Shown: in pieces, positions 36,564 to 41,452 of the stretch
Position numbering within the stretch: position 1 is the first letter of the stretch
Layout: every line of letters begins with the position of its first letter
Source of the DNA: an uncultured Cohaesibacter sp.
GTDB lineage: Bacteria; Pseudomonadota; Alphaproteobacteria; Rhizobiales; Cohaesibacteraceae
Reading direction: 5' to 3'
Length of the DNA: 64,000 bases
NCBI RefSeq assembly: GCF_963682185.1
Contig: NZ_OY821667.1
Coordinates: 2,418,001 to 2,482,000, forward strand
Made by a program: the position numbers and the translations under genes
Notes under the pieces: generated by a model
Told to the model about the DNA's origin: nothing
Seen by the model: only the letters and a program-made list of their open reading frames with translations
Database searches by the model: none

Positions 36564-36578
36564 GCACAATCAATGTGC
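36564..36578. promoter_or_regulatory. NtrC binding-site candidate
   Basis: GCACAATCAATGTGC keeps the GCAC-N7-GTGC arms of the NtrC enhancer consensus. It lies about 200 bases upstream of the sigma-54 promoter, a usual enhancer distance. Confidence 0.6.
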
Positions 36579-36780: not shown

Positions 36781-36796
36781 TGGCACGGCTTTTGTA
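36781..36796 (+). promoter_or_regulatory. Sigma-54 promoter of glnK-amtB
   Basis: TGGCACG-GCTT-TTGTA matches the -24/-12 consensus TGGCACG-N4-TTGCW except one base. Predicted start near 36807. Confidence 0.85.
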
Positions 36797-39975: not shown

Positions 39976-40260
39976 TCAATAGAGCCCGGTTCTGAGCAGG
40001 TTCCGAACGAAGAAGATCCCGAGCAGCAAAATGACTGGAGAAAGATCCAGCCCACCCATTGCAGGGATAATCGAGCGGATACGTCCAAGAACCGGTTCGG
40101 TCAACCGCCAACAAACCTCGTAAATCGAGGAGACAATCTGATTGCGCGGATTGACGATATTGAAGGCGAACAGCCATGAGAAAACCGCCGATGCGATCAC
40201 AACATAGGTGTAGATCGCCAGAACCTGATCAATCAAAAGAATTAAAGCTGTCATAGTCAT
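39976..40260 (-). CDS. YggT family membrane protein
   Basis: 94 residues with two hydrophobic helices at each end. ALILLIDQVLAIYTYVVIASAVFSWLFAF, WRLTEPVLGRIRSIIPAMGGLDLSPVILLLGI and a final short segment match the single-repeat YggT form, which is linked to osmotic shock and cell-envelope function. It lies downstream of the sigma-54/small-RNA element, so read-through past its terminator could reach it. Confidence 0.9.
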   Translation of the reverse strand: MTMTALILLIDQVLAIYTYVVIASAVFSWLFAFNIVNPRNQIVSSIYEVCWRLTEPVLGRIRSIIPAMGGLDLSPVILLLGIFFVRNLLRTGLY

Positions 40261-40473
40261 CCTCGTGTTCGGAAAAAGAGACCTCGGTCCTTACGACTTC
40301 CCGAAATATTTGTGCTCCCGCCACGGGGACAGATCACCCCCGGATATCTGTTGAGACATGTAGCGATCTATAGCCCCCCCTGCAAGGGCCAAATAGAGAC
40401 GAAACGTCGGTTTTGCCTCATGCTTCCTTATGCCTGAACTGTGTTAAGTTTTGGAAAAAGCGGACCTTTAAAA

Positions 40474-40519
40474 TACAAAAAGCCCCGATACATACGCAAA
40501 CACAGGTGCATCGGGGCTT
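40474..40519 (-). terminator. Rho-independent terminator of the candidate small RNA
   Basis: Ten-base perfect stem AAGCCCCGAT (40480-40489) / ATCGGGGCTT (40510-40519), followed on the minus strand by TTTTTGTATTT. Confidence 0.85.
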
Positions 40520-40563
40520 GATGAGATGAGGTGCTGGCTACGCGAACACCAAATGCCAGCTTG
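40474..40563 (-). ncRNA. Candidate sigma-54-dependent small RNA (about 90 nt)
   Basis: Predicted from a full-consensus sigma-54 promoter whose +1 should fall near 40563. The transcript would open three bases before a 6-pair hairpin GCTGGC (40555-40560) / GCCAGC (40533-40538). An unpaired pyrimidine-rich linker (ACCTCATCTCATC) follows, then the strong terminator. This is the architecture of a base-pairing regulatory RNA. The linker could pair with GAUGAG- or GAGGU-type ribosome-site regions. I recognise no known family. Confidence 0.6.
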
Positions 40564-40574
40564 CACTTAGAAGA

Positions 40575-40589
40575 GCAAGCGGCGTGCCA
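40575..40589 (-). promoter_or_regulatory. Sigma-54 promoter, full consensus match
   Basis: On the minus strand the sequence reads TTGGCACG-CCGC-TTGCTC, matching YTGGCACG-N4-TTGCW at every conserved position with correct -24/-12 spacing. The only thing downstream before the terminator is the candidate small RNA. Confidence 0.8.
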
Positions 40590-40696
40590 AGTTTGAGAAA
40601 AATTCCAAAACACACATTTAGTATTCAAGAACAAAAAGACACTACAAGATCTAGATCGCCCTATAATCCGGTCAAGGCTTTGGTAACAACCCGGTC

Positions 40697-40728
40697 TGCA
40701 ATTTGCAAAGCCCCCTTTGCAAATTGCA
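40697..40728. promoter_or_regulatory. Perfect 14-base-arm palindrome, candidate enhancer site
   Basis: TGCAATTTGCAAAG / CTTTGCAAATTGCA around CCCC, each arm itself holding TTTGCAAA. It lies 108-139 bases upstream of the sigma-54 promoter, the usual place for an enhancer-binding activator. It also follows the GATase stop by 13 bases, but no T-run follows on the minus strand, which argues against an intrinsic terminator. Confidence 0.6.
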
Positions 40729-40741
40729 TGACTTGCCAGCC

Positions 40742-41452
40742 TTATCCGCGAGCAGGGCCGGGTCCGATCCACAAATCCAGAAAGTGGTTCAGCCAGCGCT
40801 CGACATAGGGATCATAAGCACTGCGTTCTCTGAAATGATCTCCGCGCTTTCGCGCCCCTTCCACAGACAGATGATCAGCGGCAGCCGTCGTCCATTGATG
40901 CATCATCTGCAAAGTGACTTCCGGATGAAACTGGATAGCATAAGCATTTTTGCCATAACGCATGGCCTGATTGCTGAAATAGGAGCTACTGGCCAGTCGC
41001 TCCGCACCGGAGGGAAGTGAGAAGCCCTCCTTATGCCACTGATAAACTTTCTGCGGCCAGTCAAACAACGCCTGGCCTTCATCGGTTGGTGCAATTTCGT
41101 AATAGCCGCGTTCAACGAGCCCGCAAGGGTGCAGCTCAACTTGCCCACCCAGCTGCCGACACATCATTTGTGCGCCAAGACAAATGCCCAGAAACGGCGT
41201 CTCGTCACGCAAGGGCACGGAAATCCAGTCAATCTCCTTGGCAACATAATCCTCTTCATCATTTGCGCTCATCGGGCCACCGAAGATCACGGCACCGGCA
41301 TGCTCGCTCATGCTCTGAGGCAGAGGATCCCCAAAGCGTGGGCGCCGTATATCCAGCGTATATCCTCTTTGCTCCAGAAGATATCCGACCCGACCGGGGG
41401 TTGAGGCTTCCTGATGAAGAATGATCAGTATCTTTTGCAAATCAGCGCTCAT
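40742..41452 (-). CDS. Class I glutamine amidotransferase (GMP-synthase-like domain)
   Basis: 236 residues made of a stand-alone GATase domain. The triad is Cys91 in GICLGAQM, His176 and Glu178 in QFHPEV. No synthetase domain follows, so its acceptor is unknown; relatives include gamma-glutamyl hydrolases and GuaA-like proteins. Its start overlaps the TerB gene stop by four bases (one operon). The palindrome and sigma-54 element lie just downstream. Confidence 0.9.
   Translation of the reverse strand: MSADLQKILIILHQEASTPGRVGYLLEQRGYTLDIRRPRFGDPLPQSMSEHAGAVIFGGPMSANDEEDYVAKEIDWISVPLRDETPFLGICLGAQMMCRQLGGQVELHPCGLVERGYYEIAPTDEGQALFDWPQKVYQWHKEGFSLPSGAERLASSSYFSNQAMRYGKNAYAIQFHPEVTLQMMHQWTTAAADHLSVEGARKRGDHFRERSAYDPYVERWLNHFLDLWIGPGPARG

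Follow-up and report, generated by a model that had tools for sequence, protein, structure and literature searches.

The Qrr RNAs of vibrios are short, structured and non-coding, with four stem-loops and a terminator. Small RNAs driven by LuxO are, to our knowledge, known only in vibrios, where they belong to quorum sensing. Other small RNAs that depend on sigma-54 include NrsZ, NalA and NfiS, which are nitrogen-controlled and have NtrC sites, CrcZ/CrcY, activated by CbrB, and GlmY, activated by GlrR. At Vibrio qrr promoters, the enhancer site for LuxO is reported to be the LuxO box TTGCAWWWTGCAA, present in two copies (PMC10162802). In a reported survey of 138 genomes, LuxU and LuxP orthologues were found only in vibrios, whereas non-Vibrio genomes gave four reciprocal best hits to LuxO, including one in Bradyrhizobium japonicum, and looser LuxO homologues were present in most Proteobacteria (PMC524169).

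Here we describe a locus in Cohaesibacter, a marine alphaproteobacterium close to the rhizobia, that is probably a free-standing small-RNA gene under the control of a LuxO-family bEBP and sigma-54, wired like the Vibrio qrr genes; no kinship of the RNA itself to Qrr was detected. The same arrangement is present in many related bacteria, apparently making it a widespread, undescribed regulatory circuit. A literature search, with most subscription journals and preprints outside its scope, found no paper describing the RNA.

Promoter and predicted RNA

The window, the whole stretch of 64,000 nucleotides that was analysed, corresponds to C1:2418001-2482000 of a 5.39-Mb, one-contig genome; positions given without a contig name are those of the window. 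The sequence-only reading had placed a full-consensus sigma-54 promoter on the minus strand, with a start near 40563, and both points hold. The promoter TTGGCACGCCGCTTGCT (40574-40590, minus strand) is the single zero-mismatch match in the window to the full consensus TTGGCACGNNNNTTGCW, where about 0.004 would be expected per 64 kb over both strands by arithmetic with equal base frequencies; its GG(-24) and GC(-12) are kept in 18/18 genus rows, and promoter spacing gives the same predicted +1 at 40563. With up to two mismatches allowed, TTGGCACGNNNNTTGCW matches seven places in the window versus 4.5 expected, i.e. chance level, and the core TGGCACNNNNNTTGCW alone, found genome-wide at 16 places versus 6 for the reversed pattern, is weak evidence for a promoter.

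Upstream lies a glutamine-amidotransferase-like gene (40742-41452, minus strand; assigned by eye from motifs), a homologue of which is upstream of the RNA in 18/40 out-of-genus loci within the 1200 bases fetched. The downstream neighbour, a yggT-like gene (39976-40260, minus strand) for which we assume the name yggT, encodes a protein whose closest named matches are from Cohaesibacter marisflavi (100%) and C. haloalkalitolerans (92%).

Promoter spacing and the terminator predict a small RNA of ~93 nt (40471-40563, minus strand). Hairpin 1 (40533-40560), GCUGGC...GCCAGC with a GCGUA-motif loop, is separated by an unpaired 13-nt linker (40520-40532) from hairpin 2, which fold, alignment and covariation identify as a putative intrinsic terminator (40519-40480) with UUUGCGUAUG in its loop region. 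The terminator hairpin is followed by TTTTTGTATTTT, the U-rich tract lying at 40471-40481. The folding energy is -35.5 kcal/mol (z -4.4, 0/200 shuffles as stable), a stability that we take to be mostly the contribution of the terminator. The layout of hairpin, linker and terminator proposed earlier stands, but the linker, described as pyrimidine-rich, is not conserved in the genus alignment; conservation lies in hairpin 1, with its GCGUA loop, and in hairpin 2. The same reading had found no protein frame. A 114-aa ORF (40428-40772) does overlap the locus, but coding by it is unlikely because aligned genus copies across the region differ by one- and two-base indels.

A scan of the window against Rfam 15 returned no family at the gathering score, and ten loci with members of the RNA family likewise had no match at that score; permissive settings gave one match only, with an E value of 1.1, at chance level. 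Together with the conservation and covariation described below, these results agree with the earlier proposal of a putative untranslated regulatory RNA of no known family.

Conservation and covariation within Cohaesibacter

A plain DNA search recovered the region at E ≤ 1e-4 in 13/17 same-genus genomes besides the source genome, and the best match outside the genus had an E value of 8.5e-4; at E ≤ 1, matches were spread over 40/61 genomes and were, in our reading, mostly noise, a distribution that suggested an RNA limited to the genus. The covariance search of related genomes to which the sequence-only reading had pointed proved more informative. Covariance model R1, combined with sequence inspection, found the RNA in 18/18 Cohaesibacter genomes (E ≤ 2.8e-16), and the RNA recurs beyond the genus. 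The training rows of R1 came from 17 of these 18 genomes; the one outside the training set, G008, was matched with an E value of 1.5e-17.

Promoter and hairpin 1 are kept in all 18 aligned genus genomes, and a terminator with a T run was read by us in 14/17 rows of the longer alignment; the copies in G004, G008, G010 and G017 are divergent and have no clear T run after hairpin 2. Covariation analysis of 17 sequences revealed two-sided changes in 7/20 pairs (shuffles, mean 2.1; 0/500 as high), and an alignment of promoter and hairpin 1 from 25 sequences revealed them in 6/7 pairs (shuffles, 1.5; 0/500 as high). Invariant positions across the 17 rows fall in the hairpin 1 stem and GCGTAGCCA, and the hairpin 1 loop reads TGCGTA in 14/17 rows and CGCGTA in the other three, the window included. 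From its genus-wide presence and the compensatory base changes, the RNA looks like a genuine gene.

Tandem LuxO-box-like sites upstream of the promoter

The region upstream of the RNA contains an element missing from the sequence-only reading, two tandem LuxO-box palindromes (TGCAATTTGCAAAGGGGGCTTTGCAAATTGCA) that are kept in the genus with their centres 21 bp apart. The distal site ATGCAATTTGCAA (40717-40729, minus strand) is centred at ~-160 and the proximal site TTGCAAATTGCAG (40696-40708, minus strand) at ~-139, each with 12/13 letters of TTGCAWWWTGCAA. In some non-genus members the spacing is 19 or 12 bp, and a Hyphomicrobiales MAG copy (L047) has 13/13 letters at both sites. A search of the source genome for the pattern TGCANNNTGC-N9..13-TGCANNNTGC gave a single location, upstream of the RNA. 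It is found at the RNA in 15/18 genus genomes, with 14 other matches in all 18 combined; at the RNA loci of G004, G008 and G015 it is not matched, and the sites there are degenerate in our reading. A tandem pattern is also present in 26/43 non-genus relatives, where it is too loose to discriminate. An interpretation as a near-perfect inverted repeat 3' of the upstream gene, i.e. a terminator or repeat element, was rejected, as the alignment shows two tandem palindromes at a fixed 21 bp.

Between the boxes and the promoter, a possible IHF site TACCAAAGCCTTG (40673-40685, minus strand) has one mismatch to the IHF consensus WATCAANNNNTTR. Sites of this kind with at most one mismatch are present in 16/18 genus loci versus ~11% of shuffles, at places that vary between loci, and the predicted site is a weak candidate. 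A conserved block in the spacer, TCTAGATCTTGTAGTG in the window (40640-40655, minus strand) and TCAATATCTTGT in some relatives of the alignment, is possibly bound by IHF or by another factor. An NtrX site (motif CAA-N-TTG) considered for CAATATCTTG was dropped for the possible IHF site, itself weak.

A LuxO-like activator

The source genome encodes eight clear bEBPs among 10 Sigma54_activat matches. NCBIfam models for NifA, FlbD, NtrC and NtrX scored above their cut-offs, and the protein encoded at C1:4223497-4224996 is the only one of the eight with LuxO (NF041946) as its best NCBIfam model, scoring 466.7 bits versus 362.7 for the next model, with the best stretch spanning profile positions 129-462. 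Since this score is below the NF041946 equivalog cut-off of 800 bits, we refer to the protein as LuxO-like and not as LuxO. Its best PDB match is LuxO 5ep0 (E 1e-97). In a tree built on 21/27 chosen loci, the other six being without a usable ORF, the LuxO-like protein, its relatives in the order, Vibrio comitans LuxO and the paralogue of the latter group together with a support of 0.90, and NtrC, NifA and FlbD lie outside this group. Within it, the Cohaesibacter protein is more distant from Vibrio LuxO than are its counterparts in G055, G057, G097 and G130.

All 11 aligned genus members have the recognition helix SPSTIYRK. Of three further proteins from outside the genus, two share it and one has APSTIYRK; the V. 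comitans LuxO helix is SASTLYRK. By our own reading of the receiver domain, the phospho-acceptor Asp is replaced with Thr and the conserved Lys with Arg in the 11 aligned genus members; three LuxO-like relatives from outside the genus all keep the Asp, and two keep the Lys. Because the receiver lacks both residues, the input of the Cohaesibacter LuxO-like protein is probably not the Vibrio phosphorelay. The luxO-like gene is far from the RNA gene, and inspection by eye of the ORFs listed beside it revealed neither a phosphotransfer nor a kinase gene; an OmpR-type response regulator is encoded ~4 kb away (L159 4765-5532).

Several further observations were made on these proteins and their surroundings. 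An acetyltransferase-like gene was seen by eye near the luxO-like gene both in Cohaesibacter (L160 436-966) and in family f41 (L240 3887-4417). In G032 (C6:216405-217394), an open frame of 1007 aa contains the LuxO-like protein; it is roughly double the normal size and is possibly a fusion. V. comitans encodes a second LuxO-clade protein (L273) with the helix SPSTVYRK, presumably SypG-like; the query AAA+ domain shares 59% identity with it versus 54%, over a longer stretch, with LuxO. Outside the window, in the 19-kb region G000:C1:4924171-4943105 (L149), a NifA gene (NCBIfam above cut-off) is accompanied by four matches to the core sigma-54 promoter, which suggests a nitrogen-fixation cluster.

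RNA, box and activator across the order

A second model, R2, comprises promoter and hairpin 1, with the enhancer region outside the model. Fifteen out-of-genus R1 matches, which were weak, were fetched, and the six with promoter and hairpin 1 were added to R2 (L222, L226, L228, L229, L231 and L232; L228 is without a clear box). The other nine (L223, L224, L225, L227, L230, L233, L234, L235 and L236) have no box and were dropped from the set, the L230 match sitting in apparent coding sequence.

In 297 genomes of the order, R2 matched 78 at E ≤ 1e-6, and 159 at E ≤ 0.01, mostly weakly, and the LuxO-like protein was found in 96/297 at E ≤ 1e-95. RNA and protein occur together in 70 genomes, RNA only in 8, protein only in 26 and neither in 193; outside the genus the corresponding counts are 59, 8, 26 and 193. 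Fisher p values are 1e-36 for all genomes and 1e-31 outside the genus, with genomes counted as independent and relatedness uncorrected. Seventeen of the 78 RNA genomes had supplied R2 training rows, and 53 of the 61 new ones hold the LuxO-like protein. By family labels and our own count, 13/14 RNA-positive families have the protein, and six further families have the protein with no RNA match at E ≤ 1e-6. Rechecking the eight RNA-only genomes for the LuxO-type HTH gave matches in four (E 3.5e-13, 9.9e-9, 2.7e-6 and 8.5e-4, the last short). A fifth, a 61% complete assembly, had no such match, and none was found in G183, G262 and G278, all of family f32 and 97-99% complete. G029, scored as lacking the protein, nevertheless gave an HTH match with an E value of 4.8e-11.

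The box was assayed as the best match to 10 fixed LuxO-box letters in the 180 bp before the promoter, in 53 of the 61 new out-of-genus copies, none of them in R2 training. Scores of at least 9/10 were obtained for 37/53 copies (28/40 and 9/13 in the two parts of the sample) and of at least 8/10 for 49/53 (38/40 and 11/13). As controls, 280 other stretches of 40 loci gave 0 at 9/10 or above and 7 at 8/10 or above, and 800 shuffles gave 0 and 47, respectively. The best box starts 94-128 bp before the promoter match in 36/38 boxed loci. G198 encodes a LuxO-like protein with a best box of only 7/10, and the same is true of the training genome G038, which carries the same genus label. In G183, G262 and G278 the RNA is present and the box is absent (best scores 7, 6 and 6 of 10). 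Among the individual lines of evidence for the LuxO-like protein as the usual activator, we give most weight to the absence of the box from these three RNA genomes, in which the protein is missing. In this family, f32 (L298, L304 and L268), promoter and hairpin 1 are kept and both the LuxO box and the LuxO-type HTH are absent; a different activator seems to have taken over its RNA. Control by LuxO is thus not universal, as f32 retains the RNA in its absence.

In out-of-genus loci, hairpin 1 showed 58 two-sided cells versus 18.9 in shuffles in an alignment fitted to the model, and, of 500 shuffles, 22 equalled its count of pairs and 26 its count of types. Most of 40 out-of-genus loci (L278-L317) have, by eye, a hairpin 2 without a T run, its stem being long and G/C-rich and carrying GACCC(C) close to the tip. 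Three f41 loci have, in our reading, a terminator in which the GTGTTTGCGT stretch of Cohaesibacter recurs. Searched across the class in 385 genomes, of which at least four others belong to the order, R2 gave one match at E ≤ 1e-6; this was the source genome, so that at the sensitivity of R2 the RNA seems confined to the order. A plasmid collection contained no match to the RNA region.

Proposed circuit and alternatives

These data are most consistent with a Qrr-like circuit rather than nitrogen control by NtrC. In this pathway, the LuxO-like protein (C1:4223497-4224996) would bind both boxes, at ~-160 and ~-139, and the DNA between boxes and promoter would bend, perhaps with IHF, followed by opening of the sigma-54 promoter by the AAA+ domain of the activator; binding and opening are suggested by motif, orthology and co-occurrence. 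From the anatomy of the sequence, a 93-nt terminator-ended RNA would then be made, and it may act in trans, most likely with GCGUA-type loops base-pairing with mRNAs. Sequence, conservation and co-occurrence are observed; we infer transcription of the RNA, its activation by the LuxO-like protein and pairing through the conserved loops, which are likely its target-pairing parts. Calculated duplexes of the RNA with luxO-like leaders differ by +6 to -11 kcal/mol from shuffled ones, and duplexes with luxO-like and yggT leaders (the latter without a shuffle control) have no constant place; we regard these duplexes as uninformative, and no target emerged from them.

The repeated loops could instead sequester a protein, as in CsrB/RsmZ, or act as an RNA sponge. 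In support of such a role, GCGU(A/G) recurs in both hairpins in 17/17 genus rows and in family f41; within the genus, the hairpin 2 copy reads by our own alignment on the 3' side of the loop in 12/17 rows, as in the window, and on the other side in five. However, the loops of the RNA in the source genome are without GGA, the motif of CsrA sites, and the second loop is GACCC(C) in most other families sampled. We consider sequestration or a sponge unlikely, although a sponge for another RNA is conceivable, and mRNA pairing the better account of the loops.

A second question is which bEBP binds the boxes. Response regulator C1:1761332, FlbD, NtrX or another could do so in place of the LuxO-like protein: the recognition helix of C1:1761332, GRSTLYRK, is also close to that of LuxO, G198 and G038 pair a LuxO-like protein with boxes of only 7/10, and SypG of Vibrio fischeri is reported to use sites that overlap LuxO boxes (PMC10162802). 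The helices of the remaining six bEBPs are further from LuxO, however, and LuxO is the best family for the LuxO-like protein only, whose distribution matches that of both RNA and box. Binding by another bEBP is therefore improbable, and the LuxO-like protein remains the preferred activator.

The sequence-only reading had suggested a nitrogen-responsive RNA by analogy with glnK-amtB. A small RNA of this kind, activated by NtrC and modelled on the nitrogen-control RNAs NrsZ and NalA, would account for the sigma-54 promoter; the source genome encodes NtrC, and glnK-amtB lies 4 kb away, with a one-mismatch -24/-12 element TGGCACGGCTTTTGTA (36781-36796) and an upstream GCAC-N7-GTGC palindrome (36564-36578), which we take to be an NtrC-type site. 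The enhancer sites argue otherwise. The boxes TGCANNNTGCA at the RNA promoter are unlike the glnK site, no NtrC-type enhancer palindrome was seen there by eye, and no tandem LuxO box was seen before glnK. Because its enhancer sites differ from those of glnK, NtrC control was rejected as the first choice. The presence of the RNA also tracks the LuxO-like protein, and the three RNA genomes without a LuxO-type HTH are also without a box. The analogy is thus not supported and direct NtrC control is very unlikely, but nitrogen could still feed into the circuit above the LuxO-like protein.

It is also very unlikely that the element, instead of being a trans-acting RNA, serves yggT as a leader or attenuator. 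This gene lies downstream in the same orientation, ~210 bp beyond the terminator, but the RNA is conserved without it: a yggT homologue is downstream in only 4/40 out-of-genus loci within the ~740 bases fetched, so the RNA is hardly likely to be a yggT leader. Finally, core -24/-12 matches are not rare (16 versus 6 reversed), but a chance promoter motif before an ordinary terminator of the upstream gene is scarcely credible, as promoter, spacing and hairpin 1 are conserved jointly in 18/18 genus genomes and beyond the genus, and enhancer boxes are present in most genus genomes and beyond it.

More speculatively, a LuxO-type activator and the sigma-54 small RNA dedicated to it may form a module that is independent of quorum sensing. 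The module would have its own RNA family across the order and, in Cohaesibacter, a version without receiver phosphorylation, and the Vibrio Qrr circuit would be one version, with quorum sensing plugged in; we regard this as an attractive idea that may well be wrong. Thirteen family groups of another class combine LuxO promoter logic with an RNA to which no kinship was detected, so that tests of how LuxO control arose and what it is used for become possible, with a concrete regulator-RNA pair for deletion studies. The RNA family is also an addition to those known, as the members scanned have no match in Rfam 15 at the gathering score.

Comparison with known systems

Among widespread alphaproteobacterial small RNAs, alpha-r8 (MmgR, SisA-D) resembles the RNA described here in its distribution; it is reported to lie beside an N-formylglutamate amidohydrolase gene in most species (PMC12559287). 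It differs in that the present RNA matches no Rfam family at the gathering score. With NrsZ, NalA and NfiS of Pseudomonas, the RNA shares its predicted dependence on sigma-54, but has LuxO boxes instead of NtrC sites. CrcZ/CrcY and GlmY are likewise driven by sigma-54 and a dedicated bEBP, although the activators and their sites are different. For all of these sigma-54 RNAs, sequences were compared through Rfam.

The closest system is Qrr1-5/LuxO of the Vibrionaceae. The host here belongs to an alphaproteobacterial order, the RNA has two hairpins, and no sequence relation to Qrr was detected, in a scan for which the detectability of Qrr was not demonstrated by a control: the Vibrio comitans luxO locus, used as control, gave no Qrr match and no LuxO box either. 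We therefore do not assign the RNA to Qrr. The receiver of the activator is degenerate in Cohaesibacter, and the luxO-like gene is distant from the RNA, with no phosphotransfer gene seen beside it by eye. What the two systems have in common is a LuxO-family activator with a like recognition helix, a short structured RNA with a terminator, a sigma-54 promoter and two upstream LuxO boxes, the boxes being as described for qrr promoters (PMC10162802).
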